Of a DNA stretch of 39,062 bases, positions 3,283 to 30,288 are shown in pieces. The position numbers and the translations under genes are program-made. A model generated the notes under the pieces. It had not been told where the DNA came from. It worked only from the letters and a program-made list of their open reading frames with translations, and made no database searches. Position 1 is the stretch's first letter. Each line of letters opens with the position of its first letter. Source of the stretch: an uncultured Verrucomicrobiota bacterium. GTDB lineage: Bacteria; Verrucomicrobiota; Verrucomicrobiia; Chthoniobacterales; JACTMZ01. Location of the stretch: the NCBI GenBank assembly GCA_903953565.1, contig CAJBKE010000024.1, forward strand, positions 1 through 39,062. The letters are read 5' to 3'.

Positions 3283-4691
3283 TGAGCGCCGCCAAGCCTG
3301 AAACTTTGCGCAAGGTCCACTTCACCGGCGTCTGCGGCACGGCCATGGGCTCGCTCGCCGCTGCGCTGCGCGATCGCGGCGTCGAAGTCACCGGATCGGA
3401 TGACAATGTTTATCCGCCGATGTCCACCTTTCTCGAAGGCAAGGGGATCACGATCAGCAAAGGATTCCGTCCGGAGAACATCCCTGCCGATGCCGACTTC
3501 GTGGTCATCGGCAATGCCATGACCCGCGGAAATCCCGAGGTGGAATCCATCCTCAACCGCAAGCTGCTCTATTACTCGTTGCCGGAGGCGCTGAAAATTT
3601 TCTTCCTGCGCGGGCGCCACAACCTCGTGGTCACCGGCACGCACGGCAAAACCACGACCACATCGCTCCTCGCCTGGATTTTCGAATCGGCCGGCCTCGA
3701 GCCATCGTGGCTCATCGGCGGCATCCCGAACAATCTCGGACAAGGTTGCCGACTCGGGGATTCGAAATACTTCATCCTCGAAGGCGACGAATATGACACG
3801 GCATTCTTCGACAAGCGCAGCAAGTTCGTCCACTACCTGCCCGAGTTGCTCATCGTGAACAATATCGAGTTCGACCATGCGGATATCTTCCGCGACCTCG
3901 AGGACGTGATGACCAGCTTCCGCCGCCTCGTGCAGATCGTGCCCAGCGAAGGCATGGTTCTCCTTAACGGAGACGACCCGAACTGCCGCGCGCTGGCCGA
4001 GAAATGTCCCGCCCCCATGCTCGAGGTCGGTTTTTCTCCCAATGCCGGCAATCACATCGGCGACGTGCACTACGGACGCGAGATGTCGTCGTTCACTCTT
4101 TTCGGCCAACGTTTTGAAATCCGCATGATCGGCGAATTCAACGTGCGCAATGCGGCCATGGCGGTCTCGGCCGCGCATTTCTACAACGTGCCCTTCGAGG
4201 AGATCCGCAAGGCACTGCTGTCCTTCACCGGCATCCGCCGCCGCCAGGAAGTGCGCGGCGAGGCGGGAGGGGTCACGGTGATCGACGATTTCGGACACCA
4301 TCCCACGGCCATCGCGCAAACCCTCGAAGGCCTGCGGGTCAAATATCCCGTGGCGAAATTGTGGGCCGTCTTCGAACCGCGCTCCAACACCACGCGGCGG
4401 GCCGTATTTCAAGACGTTCTCCCCAAAGCTTTCGCCGGAGCCGATGGCGTGGTGCTCGCGCAAGTGGCGCGCATGGATCAGTTGCCGCCTGATCAGCGTC
4501 TCAATCCGGAGAAAGTCGTCTCGGACCTCAAAGCGGCAGGCAAGCAGGCCTTCTACGAACCCGACACCGCGACGATCATCAACCGCGTGTCCGGTCTCGC
4601 CGGCAAGGGTGATGTCATCGTCGTCTTCAGCAACGGCGGGTTCGACAACATCCACACGAAGTTGCTCGAGGCCCTCAAGGCAAAGAGCTGA
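3282..4691 (+). CDS. mpl: UDP-N-acetylmuramate:L-Ala-gamma-D-Glu-meso-DAP ligase (murein peptide recycling)
   Basis: A 469-residue Mur ligase. It has the N-terminal UDP-binding motif GVCGTAMGSLA, the ATP-binding loop VTGTHGKTTTTSLLAW near residue 115-130, the long Mpl-type stretch GDEYDTAFFDKRSKF and the C-terminal domain with DDFGHHPTAI and FEPRSNT. These features separate Mpl from MurC, which has a shorter P-loop region and other substrate residues. Mpl attaches recycled tripeptide to UDP-MurNAc in the cytoplasm, which implies a meso-DAP peptidoglycan and peptide recycling. It shares an overlapping start with the CysJ-like gene, although no functional link between them is known. Confidence 0.93.
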   Translation: MSAAKPETLRKVHFTGVCGTAMGSLAAALRDRGVEVTGSDDNVYPPMSTFLEGKGITISKGFRPENIPADADFVVIGNAMTRGNPEVESILNRKLLYYSLPEALKIFFLRGRHNLVVTGTHGKTTTTSLLAWIFESAGLEPSWLIGGIPNNLGQGCRLGDSKYFILEGDEYDTAFFDKRSKFVHYLPELLIVNNIEFDHADIFRDLEDVMTSFRRLVQIVPSEGMVLLNGDDPNCRALAEKCPAPMLEVGFSPNAGNHIGDVHYGREMSSFTLFGQRFEIRMIGEFNVRNAAMAVSAAHFYNVPFEEIRKALLSFTGIRRRQEVRGEAGGVTVIDDFGHHPTAIAQTLEGLRVKYPVAKLWAVFEPRSNTTRRAVFQDVLPKAFAGADGVVLAQVARMDQLPPDQRLNPEKVVSDLKAAGKQAFYEPDTATIINRVSGLAGKGDVIVVFSNGGFDNIHTKLLEALKAKS

Positions 4692-4697
4692 GAGGTG

Positions 4698-4760
4698 GAT
4701 CGCGCCGTCCCGGCGCGATAAGTGTTAAAGAAATCGCGATGTGGACATCGCGATCCACCG
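4698..4760. repeat. Nested palindrome between converging genes
   Basis: The gap between the converging mpl and metallophosphoesterase genes is almost fully palindromic. Outer arms GGTGGATCGCG and CGCGATCCACC are perfect inverted copies. Between them lie two smaller hairpins, TCGCGCC-GTCCC-GGCGCGA and ATCGCGATG-TGGA-CATCGCGAT. It lacks a long T-run, so it is a REP-like or cruciform element that could also act as a bidirectional terminator. Confidence 0.75.
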
Positions 4761-4761
4761 T

Positions 4762-5700
4762 TTATGCAGATCGCAAAATGTGCACGGTCATTTCCGGCGG
4801 ACAATTGAAACGCGCGGCGACGCCGCAGGATCCGGTGCCGGGCGAGGTGTAGCCGTGCAATCCTTGATGCGACCATGCGCCGACGAATTGAGCGGGCGGA
4901 CAACGCCCGTTGCGCACGATGGCCACTCCGCCGGGCAGGCAGATCTGTCCGCCGTGAGTGTGCCCGCTCAGCATGAAGTTGAAGCCGTAATGCCGCGTGT
5001 CTTCGAAGGTTTCCGGGCTGTGGGAAAGAAGGATCGAACAGGCCCCCTGTGGTATTCCGCGCCGCGCGGCTTCCAAATCGTGCGTGCGGTAAAAGTGCGG
5101 ATCGTCGATCCCGGCGAACCAGAGTTTTTCGCCGTGGCGTTCGACGGTGGTATTCTCGTTGAGCAGAACGCGCAGTCCGGCTTCCTCGAGGTGGGGAACG
5201 ATTTCGATGATGTCGTGGTTGCCGAGGATAGCGAGGGCGCCGGGTCCGAGGGCCGCGGCGACACGGGTGATGTCCGGCAGGCAATCGTGGAAGTATCCCG
5301 CCGGATGGTCGGCAAAGTCTCCCGTGATGACGGCGAGGTCGTGCGGGGTGCGCGCGAGGAGATTGACCAAACGGTCGGTTAATCCTTCCACGCAATCGAG
5401 ATGAAGATCGGAAAGATGGAGCAGACGGAATCCGTCGAAGGCCGCGGGCAGATTGGCCAGCGGTTGTTCGCGGACGACCGTGCGGATATCGAGGCAGTTG
5501 GCCCGTCCGCGCGCGGCGAGGCCGGTGAAGCGGAACAATGTGTCGATCATCCGGTCGACCGGCACGACGCGCTCGACAACGAGGGGACCTTCTCCTTGGT
5601 GGACCAGCCGGGCACGCAGGTTGGACTGACGCTGCAGGCGCTGGCGAAGGAGAGATGGACCGAGGCGCGCGGCGAGAGGGCGGAAGTCGGAATCGTGCAT
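4762..5700 (-). CDS. Calcineurin-like metallophosphoesterase (YaeI type)
   Basis: A 312-residue protein with the full binuclear-metal motif set: LLHLSDLHLD near residue 93, VITGDFADH, ILGNHD, a histidine in LLSHSP and the closing SGHTHGGQ near residue 245. The arrangement fits the YaeI-like branch, whose members act on phosphodiester or lipid substrates at the membrane. The N-terminal 80 residues before the first motif are basic and resemble the extension of that branch. No signal peptide is obvious. The ATG at 5700 abuts a palindromic repeat and has no visible ribosome-binding site; ATG at 5553 is an alternative start. The substrate is unknown. Confidence 0.85.
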   Translation of the reverse strand: MHDSDFRPLAARLGPSLLRQRLQRQSNLRARLVHQGEGPLVVERVVPVDRMIDTLFRFTGLAARGRANCLDIRTVVREQPLANLPAAFDGFRLLHLSDLHLDCVEGLTDRLVNLLARTPHDLAVITGDFADHPAGYFHDCLPDITRVAAALGPGALAILGNHDIIEIVPHLEEAGLRVLLNENTTVERHGEKLWFAGIDDPHFYRTHDLEAARRGIPQGACSILLSHSPETFEDTRHYGFNFMLSGHTHGGQICLPGGVAIVRNGRCPPAQFVGAWSHQGLHGYTSPGTGSCGVAARFNCPPEMTVHILRSA

Positions 5701-5703
5701 GTT

Positions 5704-5805
5704 TTGTAGCGGCGGTCAGCCGAGGCTTGGCGAGACAGGCGAAGCCAATGACCGTCGGAGCATGAAAAAAGCAAAGGCACCGACGGTCATAGACCGCCGC
5801 TACAA
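5704..5805. repeat. REP-like double palindrome (TTGTAGCGGCGGTC arms)
   Basis: Perfect 14-base outer arms TTGTAGCGGCGGTC (5704-5717) and GACCGCCGCTACAA (5792-5805) enclose inner arms TGACCGTCGG and CCGACGGTCA. The middle contains a third imperfect hairpin and an A-rich stretch. The element fills the gap between hisI and the metallophosphoesterase, and its TAG is the stop codon of hisI on the minus strand. Confidence 0.85.
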
Positions 5806-6201
5806 TTTGGGGGTGGAGTAGACCTTTCCAGCGTCAAAAGTCGGCGATTCTTCCACGGCGACTGGCCGGCCTTCCATGTTATAGCGTTGGAAGAAGCAAC
5901 TTTCGTAGCCGGTGTGGCAGGCACCGGTGGTCTGCTTCACTTCGAAGAGCAGGCAATCTTTGTCGCAGTCGGCATACCAGCGGACGACATCTTGGGTGTG
6001 TCCGCTCGATTCGCCTTTGAACCAGAGTTTTTTCCGCGAGCGGCTCCAATAATGCATCTTGCCGGTCGCGAGCGTTTTTTCGAGCGACTCACGGTTCATC
6101 CACGCCATCATAAGCACGCGGCCACGCGGAGGCTGCGTGTCGGACGCCTCCTGCACAATAACGGGGATGAGTCCGTCGGCGTTGAATTTGAAGTCGGTCA
6201 T
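5800..6201 (-). CDS. hisI: Phosphoribosyl-AMP cyclohydrolase
   Basis: A 133-residue protein catalysing the third step of histidine biosynthesis, opening the adenine ring of phosphoribosyl-AMP. It has the family order: [12 protein letters not shown], then [20 protein letters not shown], the metal-binding [21 protein letters not shown] with its two conserved cysteines, and SCFFQRYN. Only the HisI domain is present, not the HisIE fusion. The open frame continues upstream to 6240, but the ATG at 6201 (MTDFKF) gives the normal length. Its TAG stop belongs to the palindromic repeat that follows. No other his genes are in the window. Confidence 0.93.
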
Positions 6202-6250
6202 GCGGGGATCAATGTCGCGGGAGTGAGCGGGGGCGGGCAAGCGGTATTTG

Positions 6251-6293
6251 GTAGGGCGCGGCGTCCTCGACGCGCCGGGAGCGGCACCGCTAC
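6251..6293. repeat. REP-like palindrome at the end of birA
   Basis: Read on the minus strand the element starts TGTAGCGGTGCCGCTCCC and ends in CCTACC, with a GGCGCG...CGCGCC stem inside. It has the same TGTAGCGG head as the element at 5704-5805. The TAG in that head is the stop codon of birA at 6290-6292. Confidence 0.7.
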
Positions 6294-7033
6294 AGGACTT
6301 CCCGCATCAGCTGCACGTGGGGCGCAGAGTGGCTGACGGGATGGCCGTCGACCTGCAAAAGAAGGTCCCCGCGGGAATCGATGCCGAGGAAGGGTCCGCG
6401 GATGACCTCGTTGGCGATGTGCAACTCGACTTGGCGGGTTCCGCCCCAATGGCGGTTGATGTCGTCGGCCAAGGAGGCGAAACCCTCTTCGGCCACGCGC
6501 CCATGCAGGATGCGCAGGGCGATGAGCAGTTCCTCGTAGATGTCGTCGATGGGTGGTGCGATGGGCAATTCGCCGGCCAGGGACGTGGCGATGGCCTCCA
6601 GTTCCGGATCCGCAGCGGCCGGATTGTTGGTCACATTGAGTCCGAGTCCGACAACAACGCGATCGGCCGCGAATTTTTCCATGAGGATGCCGCAGATTTT
6701 TTTCGGTCCGACGAGGACATCATTGGGCCAGCGGAGGCGCGCTTCGGAAAGTCCGAGTCCGCGCAGGGTGGAAACCACGGCGAGTCCGGCGGCGAGAGGA
6801 AAGGCGGGCCATCCTCGGTCCGGCGGATCGAGCGGCAAGACAATCGAAATCCATAGACCGCCTTCGTCCGACGACCAGTGGCGTCCGTGGCGTCCGCGCG
6901 CGGCATTCTGCGTGTGCGCGCGCACGGCGTGCCACGGCGGTAGGTCGCGCGCGTAGTCGTTGGTCGAGCCGAGTGCATCGACTTCATGCAGCGTCCAGCC
7001 GCGCCATTCGCGAATGCGGGCGACGGTTTCCAT
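6290..7033 (-). CDS. birA: Biotin-[carboxyl carrier] protein ligase, catalytic form without DNA-binding domain
   Basis: A 247-residue biotin ligase that activates biotin with ATP and transfers it to the lysine of a carrier protein. Seen are STNDYAR, the nucleotide/biotin loop [19 protein letters not shown] and KKICGILME. The N-terminal winged helix of E. coli BirA is missing, so it should not act as a repressor. It starts three bases after the stop of the decarboxylase beta-subunit gene, placing the enzyme in the same transcript as its likely substrate, the biotin carrier at 8668-9054. The end is set by the TAG of a palindromic repeat. Confidence 0.92.
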
Positions 7034-8263
7034 CTAGTGGCGGAGTGTGGCGATGTAGAAGCCCGCGAGGACCGCGGTGCCGATGACGCCGGCGACATTC
7101 GGGCCCATGGCATGCATGAGGAGAAAATTGGAAGGATCGGCTTTTTGTCCTTCGACCTGCGAGACGCGCGCGGCCATGGGGACGGCGCTGACCCCGGCCG
7201 AGCCGATGAGCGGATTGATCGGGTTGTGGCGGGAGAAAAGATTGAGCAGCTTGGCCGCGAGGACGCCGCCGGCGGTGCCCAGTCCGAAGGCGACGATGCC
7301 GAGGCCGATAATGAGGAGTGTTTGCGGGCGGAGGAAACTTTCCCCGGCCATGGTGATGCCGACGCTGGTGCCGAGGAAAATGGTCACGACATTGATGATC
7401 TCATTCTGCGAGGCTTTGAGCAGGCGTTCGGTCACGCCGCATTCGCGCAGGAAATTTCCCAGCATGAGCATGCCGATCAGCGGGGCGGCTGCGGGGACGA
7501 GAAGAATGACGGTGATGGTGACGAGGAGGGCAAAGACGAGTTTTTCCAGCCGCGAAACCTGGCGGAGGGATTGCATGCGGATCTTGCGCTCCTTCATCGT
7601 GGTCAGCGCGCGCATGATAGGCGGCTGGATGAGCGGGACGAGAGCCATGTAGGTGTAGGCCGCCACGGCCACGGCGCCGAGGAGTTCGGGGGCGAGCTTG
7701 GAGGTGAGGAAGATGGCAGTGGGTCCATCCGCCCCGCCGATGATGCCGATGGAGGCGGATTGTTGCGCGTTGAAGCCGAGCAGTCCGGCTCCGAGGAATG
7801 TGGCGAGCACGCCGAGCTGCGCGGCGGCGCCGAGGAGAAGGGTTCGGGGATTGGCGATGAGCGGACCGAAGTCGGTCAGCGCGCCGATGCCGAGAAAGAT
7901 GAGCGGAGGGAAGATCTCGAGTTTGATGCCCTGGGAAAGAAAGTCATAAAGTCCTCCGGTGATGTGGTCGATGCGGAAGCCGCCGGTGTCGAGCGCGGTG
8001 CCGTGCACGGTGAGGACCCCGGTCTCGACCATGCCGTCGGCCAGCACCCGGCTGGTGATCATTCCTTCGGTCGGAAGATTGGCGAGGAGTGCGCCGAAGG
8101 CGATGGGCACGAGGAGGAGTGGTTCGAATTTTTTGTGCACGCCGAGGTAGAGGAGAACGGCGCACACGCCCCACATGACGGCCATTTGCCAGGTCACCGA
8201 GGAAAATGCGGTGAGTTGGAAGAACGCGGCGAAGTCGCGGAAGATGTCGACGAGCAGGTTCAC
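7034..8263 (-). CDS. Na+-translocating decarboxylase beta subunit (OadB/MmdB type)
   Basis: A polytopic membrane protein of about 409 residues that decarboxylates carboxybiotin and pumps sodium ions outward. It has the family motifs [20 protein letters not shown] (with the essential Asp), [18 protein letters not shown] and [17 protein letters not shown] near the C-terminus. The start is most likely GTG at 8263, because it overlaps the stop of the upstream gamma-like gene as GTGA; a longer frame reaching 8311 would run inside that gene. The neighbouring epimerase and carboxyltransferase point to methylmalonyl-CoA as substrate. Confidence 0.92.
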
Positions 8264-23448: not shown

Positions 23449-26400
23449 ATGCTAAAAACCGACCACAAATCCCTTCTCCTCGCTGCGTTGCTTTGCTCTG
23501 CGGCTTTTCTCAACCAAGCAGCCCTTGCCGCTGATTGGAATGCGGCGACTGGCGATTGGACCAATGCGGCAAACTGGACTCCCGCTCAAGTGCCCACCGC
23601 GGGCGACACTGCCTTGATCGACAACAGCGGGAATGCGCAGGTCACCGATGTTCAGTCGGCCGAAGCCTTCAACCTATTTGTGGGCGACGTCTCCAGCGGC
23701 AACAGTCTGGGGGTTTCCAACGGTGGCACGGTGACGGTGGGGCACAGTGTCCTAATCGGCAATGCCTCAACCTCCTCGAACAATAGCGTGCGGTTAAGCG
23801 ATGCTGGCACGTTCTTGACCAACGGGGTTGATTTCAGCATCGGCAACGATGGCTCTGGCAACAGTCTCGTGATTTCCAACGGGGCTTCGGCCTATGTCGG
23901 TAGGTTCACGACCGTCGGAAATAACGCGGGCTCCGCGAACAATACGCTCGTCGTGACAGACAATGCCGCTTTCACCAATTTCTACGATCTTTACATCGGC
24001 AATGCAGGTTTCTCCAATTCCCTTGAGATCTCCGGCGGTGGGACGGTAACTGTCCTAGGAGATCCTTGGCCCGGAAATTACAATGGAAGTGTCATTGGGA
24101 GTAAATCGAACTCCTTTAATAACAGCGCGGTGATATCGGGGTTTGGGTCGACGTTGAACAGTCCCAATCTCTTCGTTGGCGACTTCGGCTCAAGCAACAG
24201 CCTGACTATTTCCAATGGTGGTCAGGCTTTGGTCGCTGCCACTACGTTTCTGGGAAACAACGCATCCTCCTCCAACAACTCGGTGGTGGTGACCGGAGCA
24301 GCCTCGGCTCTGAGCAACGGTGGAGATCTCGTTGTCGGCTACTATGGATCCTCCAACAGCTTGGTCATTTCCGACGGGGCACAGGTAGCCGACATCAATG
24401 GCTGGCTCGGATACGTCGCGTCCTCCTCGAACAACACGGTGGTGGTGACCGATGCGGGCTCGCTCTGGACAAACTCGGCAGGTCTTATCGTCGGCAACGA
24501 TGGTTCGGGCAACAGCCTGACCATCTCCAACGGCGCCCAGGTGACTGCGGCAACTGTTGCACTTATCGGCAACAATGGTGGTTCCTCGAACAACACGGCG
24601 GTGGTGACAGGCGCGGGCTCGGTTCTGAGCACCTCTGGGGAACTCTACGTTGGCAATGTGGGTTCCTTCAACAGCCTCGTCATTTCGGACGGGGGGCAGG
24701 TGGTGAACGTAAACGGCTGGATCGGAAACAACGTATCCTCCTCCAACAATACGGTGATAGTGAGCGATGCGGGCACGCTCTGGACAAATCAGGGGGGTGT
24801 TATTGTGGGCCATGATGGATCCTCTAATAGCTTGGTCATCTCCAATGGGGCCCAGGTGTTTGCGGCAACTGGCGTAGCTATCGGCAACACTCCTTCTTCC
24901 TCGAACAACATGGTGGTGGTGACGGGAGCGGACTCGACTCTGACCACCCCCGCAGATCTTTACGTTGGCAGTGGGGGTTCCTTCAACAGCCTCGTCATTT
25001 CGGACGGGGGACAGGTGTTCAATGCCAACGGCGTGATTGGAAACTACGCCGGGGTTTCCAACTCAGTGTTGATCACGGGCCCTGGTTCCCTCTGGAGTAA
25101 CAGTGGCACGGTGAACATCGGCCCGAATGTCGGCGGCGCGTCTCTCGCCTTGGAAGATGGGGCGCAGTTGGTGGCAGCGAGTAGTATCTACGTCCAACCC
25201 GCCGCGACCCTCTCCGGCAACGGCACGATCACGACAACCGATCTGAATGTTCTCGGGGGCGGAACGCTCTCCCCGACGGGCACCAATTCCTTGGTGATCA
25301 ATGGCGACCTGAAAGTCGGTCCTTGGAGCTTCTGGAATGGGCAGCGGGGGTCCCTGCTTTGGAGTCTCGATGGCAATACCAACGGTCCGGCCGGGAGCAC
25401 CAACTTCAGCGCGCCGATCACCCTCAATGGCGCGCTCGAGGTCGGGTATGCCACCTTCGACATCAATCTGGGTTCCAACGTCTCGCCCTCCGATGGCTTC
25501 TGGTCGAACAGCGCGACTTGGACGGTGATCAACGGCACCAACCCACTCACGCAGGGAGCGAATTTCAACATGGCGCTCAGTGGGAATACCAACGGCTTCA
25601 ACATCGGTGCGAAGATCTGGGAGTATAGCACCAATGTGAATTCCTTTTACCTGGTGACCTCCGGAAACAGCCTCCAGCTCCTCTACAGCGTCGGCGATTT
25701 CTGGACCAGCGGCACGAATTACTGGACCAATGGCGGCAATTGGAGCAGGGGCTTGGAGCCTGGCTCCACCACGCAGCCCATCATCGACAATGGCGGAACG
25801 GCCATTCTGGAGACCGCGGGCCAGGCCTTTAACCTCTTTGTCGGCTTCACCAATTCCGACAACACTCTCCTCGTGACCAATGGCGGACAACTCTCCGTCG
25901 AGAATCTTGCCTACATCGGCCACGGCGAGAACTCCTCGAACAACTCCGTGGTGGTCACGGGCCCAAGCTCCCTCTTGAGTAGTGCCGGCTCGGGTCTGGC
26001 TGTCGGCTATCTCGGCTCGGGCAACTCTCTGGTGATCTCCGATGGGGCCAAGGTGTTGGGTGGCTCCCCGGATCAATACTTCTCCAGCTATATTGGCTAT
26101 GGTTCGAATTCCTCTGGCAACTCCGTCTTGGTGACGGGCGCCAACTCGCTCTGGTCTAGCTCAGGAGACCTCTATATCGGCAACGAAGGCAGCAGCAACA
26201 GCCTCACGGTGGCCGACGGAGGTACAGTGGCGAATTCCTACGGCTACATCGGCTCCTACAACACCTCCTCCAACACCTCCTCCAACAACAGCGTGCTGGT
26301 GACCGGGGCGAACTCGCTCTGGACGAACAGCCAAGACATCTTTGTTGGTCTGTCCCTCGGCGACAACAGCATGGTCATTTCCAACGGCGGCACTGTGGCG

Positions 26401-27621
26401 AGTGTCTATGGCTACATCGGCTCCTACGACACCTCCTCCAACAACAGCGTGCTGGTGACCGGGGCGAACTCGCTCTGGACGAACAGCGAAGAAATCTATG
26501 TTGGTCTGTTCCTCAGCGACAACAGCATGGTCATCTCCAACGGTGGCACAGTGGCGAATACCTATGGCTACATCGGCTCCTTCAGCACCTCCTCCAACAA
26601 CAGCGTGCTGGTGACAGGGGCAAGCTCGCTCTGGACCAATAGCGGTGAGCTCCATGTCGGCAGGGAGGGCAGCGGCAACAGCCTCACCGTAGCCGATGGT
26701 GGCACCGTGGCGGCATCGGGCATCAGAATTGCTGAGCTAGCCGATTCCTCCGGCACGCTGAACATCGGTCGCTTCGGCACCAATGATGCGGCAGGCACGC
26801 TCATCGCCCCGACCATCGCCTTCGGCGATGGCACCGGCTCGATCAACTTCAACCAGAGCAACGCCATGACGCTGTCGGCCATCATCTCCGGAAACGGTGG
26901 GGTGAACCAACTGGGCAGCGGCACGACCGAACTGAGCGGCATCAGCACCTACACGGGCTCGACTTCGGTCGAGGCCGGCAAGTTGGTGGTCAGCGGCTCG
27001 ATCGCGGGCAGCGCGGTCACCGTCAGCGGCACCGGCACGCTGGGCGGCACCGGCACGGTCGGTTCGCTCACCATTCTGGATCTCGGCACGCTGAGTCCTG
27101 GCGATTCTCCGGGCAATCTCAACGTCGCGGGCAATGTGACCTGGAACGGTGGCGGCAACTACAACTGGCAGATCTATGACACGACCTTGCCGGCCGGCAC
27201 CGGCTGGGATCTGGTCTCCAGCAGCGGCGCTCTCGACCTCACTTCGCTGACCACCGCGAACAAGTTCAACCTCAACCTCTGGTCGCTCTCCGGCATCGCC
27301 CCTGACGCCGATGGTGATGCGCTTAATTTCGACAACACGCAGAACTACACGTGGACCATCCTCACCGCGGCCACCGGCATCAATGGCTTCGCGGCCGACA
27401 AGTTCAACATCAATCTCGGTGCGGCCAACGGCACGGCAGGATTTGCCAACGCTCTCGGCGGCGGCACGTTCTCACTGCTTACCTCGGGCAACAACTTGAA
27501 CCTGATGTTCACCGCAGCCGGCGGAGCCGCGGTGCCCGAACCGGGCACGTGGGCCGCGGCGGCTTTGCTCGTCGGCGGCGCGGCGTTCATGCGCTGGCGC
27601 AAGCGGAAGCAAGTTTCCTGA
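23449..27621 (+). CDS. Giant beta-strand repeat surface protein with PEP-CTERM tail
   Basis: A 1390-residue secreted protein. After a signal peptide (LLLAALLCSAAFLNQAALA) it opens with DWNAATGDWTNAANW, typical of autotransporter-like beta-helix proteins of Verrucomicrobia. Residues about 60-600 and 780-1110 are long runs of an irregular repeat whose core is NNSVVVTGAxSxWTNS, LYVGxxGSxNSLVISNGG and xIGxxxSS; a second start-like segment (YWTNGGNWSRG) lies near 763, so the protein looks duplicated. Residues about 1145-1230 hold an autotransporter-associated strand repeat (QLGSGTTELSGISTYTGST). The tail has VPEPGTW, a helix and RWRKRKQVS. Only Asn/Ser/Gly-rich repeats and no catalytic motif are seen. 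The ATG at 23449 was chosen because the signal peptide follows. Confidence 0.85.
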   Translation: MLKTDHKSLLLAALLCSAAFLNQAALAADWNAATGDWTNAANWTPAQVPTAGDTALIDNSGNAQVTDVQSAEAFNLFVGDVSSGNSLGVSNGGTVTVGHSVLIGNASTSSNNSVRLSDAGTFLTNGVDFSIGNDGSGNSLVISNGASAYVGRFTTVGNNAGSANNTLVVTDNAAFTNFYDLYIGNAGFSNSLEISGGGTVTVLGDPWPGNYNGSVIGSKSNSFNNSAVISGFGSTLNSPNLFVGDFGSSNSLTISNGGQALVAATTFLGNNASSSNNSVVVTGAASALSNGGDLVVGYYGSSNSLVISDGAQVADINGWLGYVASSSNNTVVVTDAGSLWTNSAGLIVGNDGSGNSLTISNGAQVTAATVALIGNNGGSSNNTAVVTGAGSVLSTSGELYVGNVGSFNSLVISDGGQVVNVNGWIGNNVSSSNNTVIVSDAGTLWTNQGGVIVGHDGSSNSLVISNGAQVFAATGVAIGNTPSSSNNMVVVTGADSTLTTPADLYVGSGGSFNSLVISDGGQVFNANGVIGNYAGVSNSVLITGPGSLWSNSGTVNIGPNVGGASLALEDGAQLVAASSIYVQPAATLSGNGTITTTDLNVLGGGTLSPTGTNSLVINGDLKVGPWSFWNGQRGSLLWSLDGNTNGPAGSTNFSAPITLNGALEVGYATFDINLGSNVSPSDGFWSNSATWTVINGTNPLTQGANFNMALSGNTNGFNIGAKIWEYSTNVNSFYLVTSGNSLQLLYSVGDFWTSGTNYWTNGGNWSRGLEPGSTTQPIIDNGGTAILETAGQAFNLFVGFTNSDNTLLVTNGGQLSVENLAYIGHGENSSNNSVVVTGPSSLLSSAGSGLAVGYLGSGNSLVISDGAKVLGGSPDQYFSSYIGYGSNSSGNSVLVTGANSLWSSSGDLYIGNEGSSNSLTVADGGTVANSYGYIGSYNTSSNTSSNNSVLVTGANSLWTNSQDIFVGLSLGDNSMVISNGGTVASVYGYIGSYDTSSNNSVLVTGANSLWTNSEEIYVGLFLSDNSMVISNGGTVANTYGYIGSFSTSSNNSVLVTGASSLWTNSGELHVGREGSGNSLTVADGGTVAASGIRIAELADSSGTLNIGRFGTNDAAGTLIAPTIAFGDGTGSINFNQSNAMTLSAIISGNGGVNQLGSGTTELSGISTYTGSTSVEAGKLVVSGSIAGSAVTVSGTGTLGGTGTVGSLTILDLGTLSPGDSPGNLNVAGNVTWNGGGNYNWQIYDTTLPAGTGWDLVSSSGALDLTSLTTANKFNLNLWSLSGIAPDADGDALNFDNTQNYTWTILTAATGINGFAADKFNINLGAANGTAGFANALGGGTFSLLTSGNNLNLMFTAAGGAAVPEPGTWAAAALLVGGAAFMRWRKRKQVS
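26227..26706 (+). repeat. Three near-identical 156-base units inside the giant repeat gene
   Basis: Units starting GTGGCG at 26227, 26395 and 26551 are very similar (52 codons each). The first unit is 12 bases longer because of an extra copy of a TCCTCCAACACC-like segment. Such high DNA similarity points to recent tandem duplication within an otherwise diverged repeat protein. Confidence 0.8.
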
Positions 27622-29594: not shown

Positions 29595-29679
29595 CGGCAG
29601 ACTTTGCCGCTTTTGCCTCCGTCGGACGTGTGTCGACTTGTTCGCCCAAGAGCACGTCTGCTGCTATGGCTGCGCAATC

Positions 29680-30288
29680 CTCGTTCGGAGCTCGGTCGAC
29701 GGAGCCTTTTGCTCGGCGCACCGAGCTATTTTCTCGGTAAGCGGAGAGATTTTCTCGGTGCGCGAAGTTTCGGTCTCGGCGAGCCAAGCTTTTTGCTCGG
29801 CGGGCAAAGATGTTTTCTCGGCGCACGGAGTTCTGTGCTCGGCCGACGAAGATTTTTACCCCGCGCGAGCAGTTCGGAAATCAGCGCGCGAAGCTCGGAA
29901 CTCCGCCGATGAGGCTCTTTGCTCGGTGGACCGAGTTATTTCTCCGGCATGCGGGGCTATTTTCTCCGCGCGCGGAGTAATGTTATTCGTTGGCGGAGCA
30001 ATTTTCTCGGCGTCCCAAACTTTTCGCTCCGTGCGCGGAGCTTTTTGCTCGGTCTGCAAAGTGTTTTGCTCGGTGAACCGAATTGTTTTCCATGCGCGCC
30101 AAGCTTTTTACTCGGTCTGCCGGGATATTTGCGCGGCGTGCGGAGCTCTTTGCTCGGCGAGCGGAGTGATTTGCTCTGCGAGTGGAGCTTTTTTCTCGGT
30201 GCGCCTGACCTTTGACCAGTCGTGCGGCGGTTTTGGCGAGGCGTGCACTGCTCCCTACTCGGCCCGCCGATCTTCCCGCGACGCCCGT
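29680..30288. repeat. Array of about 29 degenerate tandem units of exactly 21 bases
   Basis: Twenty-four units (29701-30204) keep a strict 21-base period without any net insertion or deletion; one weaker unit precedes (29680-29700) and four decayed ones follow to 30288. The plus-strand consensus is GGAGCTTTTTGCTCGGCGNGC. Across the junction of two units this forms a small hairpin (for example GCTCCGTGCGCGGAGC) followed by T residues. Units differ at about one third of positions. Variable sites are unit positions 1, 5, 7, 11, 17 and 19, while position 16 is G in all 24. Read on the minus strand the unit encodes the heptad A-R-R-A/E-K/N-S-S, but stops occur in units 9 and 14. It lies between two converging terminators. 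Confidence 0.9.

Follow-up and report, generated by a model that had tools for sequence, protein, structure and literature searches.

In the 39,062-nucleotide stretch of DNA analyzed here (the window), the neighboring genes hisI and birA both end at a TAG carried by a repeat head, and in the sampled part of the source genome (G000; 2.86 Mb in 70 contigs) such heads serve as stop codons far more often than other TGTAG sites do. The repeats are GTAG-tagged REPs, and their family is expanded in a genus of Chthoniobacterales-like bacteria. We consider it probable that insertion and selection together produced this pattern: copies at gene ends would be tolerated, those in frame would become stops, and these would then be held by purifying selection. 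Stop donation by GTAG repeats has already been published; we add its effect size, a phase bias, and retention between species, all of which need more genomes.

The genes of the locus lie on the minus strand in the order oadB-birA-hisI-metallophosphoesterase. The biotin-protein ligase gene birA occupies positions 6290-7033 (Pfam PF03099, BPL_LplA_LipB, E 2e-11), the phosphoribosyl-AMP cyclohydrolase gene hisI positions 5800-6201 with its start at about 6201 (PF01502, PRA-CH, E 2.6e-35), and the metallophosphoesterase gene downstream of hisI positions 4762-5700 (PF00149). hisI terminates with TTG-TAG within TGTAGCGGCG (5804-5795, minus strand; 3' sequence ...CCCAAATTG-TAG-CGGCGGTCTATGACCG), and its stop at 5802-5800 is the TAG of a GTAG-tagged REP, TTGTAGCGGCGGTCTATGACCGTCGGTGCC, located at 5776-5805 on the minus strand. 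This copy stands head-to-head with a partner REP on the plus strand at 5704-5761 (TTGTAGCGGCGGTCAGCCGAGGCTTGG...AATGACCGTCGGAGC, head at 5705), and the resulting dimer separates hisI from the metallophosphoesterase gene. Alone, the hisI-side REP is predicted to form a hairpin of -17 kcal/mol (z -4.5); the dimer, an inverted repeat whose opposed heads are complementary at 14 of 14 positions, has a predicted fold of -56 kcal/mol (z -8.3). Rfam gave no match at gathering score across 4600-7200. The partner is a long-loop variant, with an extra nested stretch inside the palindrome (GTCAGCCGAG...GCGAGACAGG...CCAACTGATATGACC or shorter), which recurs in G000 at C65:50937, C62:8177, C59:59344, C52:98801, C37:120791, and C19:19967.

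birA ends with CTG-TAG within TGTAGCGGTG (6294-6285, minus strand; 3' sequence ...GTCCTG-TAG-CGGTGCCGC), its stop (6292-6290) lying in a degenerate REP head, CTGTAGCGGTGCCGCT, at 6280-6295 on the minus strand. By itself, this head is not predicted to fold into a REP-type hairpin (z -1.3). Its partner on the plus strand, at 6250-6279 in the birA-hisI spacer, is part of an older, different GTAG palindrome (GGTAGGGCGCGGCGTCCTCGACGCGCCGGG, beginning GGTAGGGCGCGGCG) that recurs almost unchanged in the corresponding spacer of G001, G002, G005, and G006. At the equivalent place, birA of G002 and G005 reads CTG-TAA-CCGCGCCGGTTGTC, which resembles, with few changes, the start of the TGTAGCGGCGCCGGTCGTT subfamily. 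With low certainty, birA may represent an old, decayed case of stop donation. The initial annotation had both genes stopping at the TAG within a TGTAGCGG head, with the repeats alike in orientation relative to the genes, and both points can be read directly from the sequence, each head running in the sense of the gene that it ends. The likeness of the two repeats stops there, however: the hisI copy is intact, a clean half of a dimer, whereas the birA copy is degenerate. Two adjacent head-ended genes are unusual, not striking, since about 0.3 such pairs are expected in the genome sample described below.

The C-terminus of HisI, ...KVYSTPKL, extends three residues beyond the KVYPN of repeat-free congeners (KVYPN-TAG/TAA in G001, G002, G005, and G010). 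hisI of G004 ends PKL-TTG-TAG-CGGCGGTC, close to the G000 version. A tree of 2850 concatenated positions placed G004, probably the sister genome, next to G000 (support 0.81). Because the tree pairs the two, one shared insertion would be the simplest reading of these gene ends, and hisI is a case common only to G000 and G004.

Genome-wide, the 13-mer TGTAGCGGCGGTC occurs in 83 copies, compared with 0 for the reversed control, spread over many contigs as singles and dimers, many of them head-to-head. The left end of the repeat is a conserved TTGTAG preceded by variable bases. TTGTAGCGGCGG was counted 78 times in G000, 64 in G006, and 45 in G004, and between 0 and 11 times in the other eight genus members. 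We assigned the family to the GTAG-tagged REPs because its head, palindrome, copy number, and gene-end placement match that class. As described in the accessible text of Di Nocera et al. 2013 (PMC3733652), members of that superfamily are short palindromes with a GTAG terminus, occur in many copies as singles and dimers, and occupy convergent or co-directional intergenic sites near 3' ends. Here, too, we found the GTAG end, dispersed copies, and 3'-end placement, as well as the stem-loop, which is present in the hisI copy and absent from the birA copy; the consensus, TTGTAGCGGCGGTCTATGACCGTCGG, is thereby likened to the superfamily through its described features and not through the 24 published consensus sequences. 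The same text includes families of Opitutus terrae (Verrucomicrobia) in the superfamily and states that GTAG termini often give a TAG stop to flanking ORFs; neither phase bias nor between-species sharing was found in it. The paired palindromes downstream of genes and near stops are also reminiscent, in arrangement, of Escherichia coli REP/BIME elements.

The many copies and the expansion in some lineages are shared with REPtrons, which are mobilised by RAYTs (Nunvar et al. 2010, PMC2817692). No Y1_Tnp gene (PF01797) was found in G000, and, unlike in a REPtron, the Y1_Tnp genes at eight congener loci examined were not flanked by TTGTAGCGGCGG. PF01797 had 0 matches in G000 (an incomplete assembly), G001, and G004, and one to six, some of them weak, in each remaining congener. 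In G000, at least 15 contig ends are no more than about 100 bases away from a repeat head (contigs C2, C6, C9, C13, C25, C27, C34, C35, C41, C42, C44, C47, C55, C56, and C59). Because contigs break at repeat dimers, a REP-flanked transposase gene could be hidden in the assembly gaps. In G008, about six GGTAGGG-type palindromes of alternating orientation lie within 1 kb on C49, beside a weak Y1_Tnp match.

The initial annotation had suggested that the family inserts at, or is kept at, gene 3' ends. As far as placement is concerned, this was borne out: 32 of 59 intergenic 13-mer copies lie between convergent genes, 27 between co-directional genes, and none in divergent regions, although the latter make up 23% of intergenic bases (P 3e-7). 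Such a distribution, together with the strong hairpin of the dimer, would also be expected if dimers were kept at 3' ends for stabilizing or ending transcripts, the coincidence with TAG being a by-product of tight packing, and in E. coli translation is affected by REPs that lie no more than 15 nt from a stop (cited in PMC12306157). We consider this explanation unlikely, given that no intrinsic terminator was called at the repeat and that a by-product alone would not lead one to expect stop-donating heads to be shared so much more often, as reported below.

We next turned to the stops themselves, using a sample of 0.998 Mb (35% of G000) in which our own codon-pair caller called 914 genes, 190 of them ending in TAG. 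TGTAGCGGYG was the stop of a called gene at 16 of 120 copies (13%), compared with 14 of 809 (1.7%) for other TGTAG sites (11/648 for TGTAG without a following C, 3/161 for TGTAGC without a following G), an approximately eight-fold enrichment (Fisher P 7e-8). The proposed contribution of the repeats as stop codons was thus supported. Within this 35% sample, repeat heads supply about one in twelve TAG stops (16/190) and end 1.75%, or roughly 2%, of genes. The initial annotation had held that a rarity of copies at stops would count against it; copies are rarely stops only in absolute terms, 87% of them being non-stops that mostly lie 8-30 nt beyond a stop. That the TAG of a GC-rich repeat simply meets stops at the background rate would fit the window alone, where the 10-mer with one mismatch is not enriched (6 occurrences against 4.6 expected); this chance explanation is refuted by the genome-wide enrichment and by the 13-mer count against its control.

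Open reading frames enter the heads with a strong bias of phase: 16 in the TAG frame, two in the TGA frame (inside GGTCTATGACC), and one in the third, open frame (P 7e-6 against equal frames). Selection as the cause is our inference, and the bias could also stem from the insertion process. Head loss in the other frames was rejected as its source, a search for palindromes by their bodies only having returned no extra TGA-frame stops. Selection for in-frame backup stops among copies past stops likewise left no sign, with distances modulo 3 of 12, 9, and 14.

Enzymes of the IS200/IS605 type use short target motifs. RAYTs are related to these enzymes (PMC2817692), and a mobilising enzyme that picks TAG or a TAG-containing motif would find targets in existing TAG stops, leave the genes intact, and produce just such a TAG-frame bias. 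In keeping with this, the hisI genes of G001, G002, G005, G006, and G009 have a TAG stop of their own, with no repeat present. Yet comparison with orthologues lacking the repeat, a check proposed in the initial annotation for hisI and birA, also revealed other stops, namely AAA-TAA in kdsB and TGA in midA, ykgJ, and recQ. Furthermore, TTGTAG belongs to the element itself, because it is present on copies away from stops, and most copies lie beyond a stop and not at it. Targeted insertion at stops, the remaining part of the 3'-end proposal, therefore seems quite unlikely to us.

To compare species, we examined 16 stop-donating genes (hisI, birA, and 14 more) and, as a control, 15 genes in which a head follows the stop at a distance of 8-23 nt, in G001, G004, G006, and G010, counting control heads as shared when found at about equal distance. 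The exact TGTAGC stop was shared in 27 of 57 comparisons, compared with 4 of 54 for control heads (Fisher P 2e-6), though comparisons within one gene are non-independent and the related genomes are few. Counted by gene, sharing was seen for 13/16 versus 4/15 (P 0.003), rmuC, queG, and birA showing none among these four genomes. The difference persisted without G006 (16/41 versus 1/39) and, the stop-donating set being richer in old subfamilies than the control, also within the 13-mer class (13/28 versus 1/38). Orthologues kept TAG in 39 of 57 cases for head-ended genes, compared with 3 of 15 for control genes that end in an ordinary TAG. In mazG of G010 (TTGTAGCCACGG), rseP of G001 (ATGTAGCCCTGG), and uvrA of G002 (TTGTAGCGACCG), decay of the palindrome has left the TAG stop in place; at the TGA-frame case C2:73434, TGA is kept in all four congeners compared and the GTAG head is lost in three. 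recQ of G004 has its native TGA followed directly by TTGTAGCGG, whereas in G000 the frame is shifted past the TGA and terminates at the repeat TAG. A shared position is no proof of a single insertion, and repeat bodies differ between species at several sites (midA and ykgJ). On the strength of the sharing, the decay with the stop kept, and recQ, we prefer retention after takeover to plain coincidence.

The distribution suggests that REP copies are tolerated just downstream of genes and purged elsewhere. A TTGTAG copy landing in frame at or just before the native stop would end the protein at its own TAG, an anatomy seen directly in the present genes; alternatively, the repeat TAG may have been reached in frame once the native stop was lost. 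The donated TAG would then become essential and be held by selection on the gene, leaving the palindrome free to decay, as the sharing and decay data suggest; the order of events at any single gene, like the role of selection in retention, we infer. Conceivably, the hairpin right behind the stop also influences the terminating ribosome or mRNA decay, an effect on mRNA stability having been suggested in the initial annotation. Whether REPs form a standing source of stop codons, with in-frame copies replacing lost native stops and selection on the gene then preserving the head, so that palindromes become fixed at gene ends over the divergence of the genus, we regard as evenly balanced. Gene ends would in this way be tied to repeat dynamics, and some REPs would persist for the simple reason that they are part of a gene; in REP-rich genomes, gene annotation, like work on stop-codon usage or C-terminal evolution, should allow for donated stops.

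At the 3' end of kdsB in G004 (C3:5677-6984), both heads of the dimer are changed from CGGCGG to CGTCGG with stem complementarity kept, a variant found nowhere else in that genome. The double change suggests compensatory change or copying between the inverted arms. We rejected TGTAGCGTCGGTC as a separate G004 subfamily, as its only two G004 copies are both at kdsB, where the variant probably arose on the spot. Elsewhere in the window, imperfect direct repeats recur every 21 bases (CGGAG..TTTTGCTCGG) over a run of about 550 bases at 29679-30225, and imperfect repeats spaced 156-159 bases apart at 23673-26723 fit a large repeat protein.
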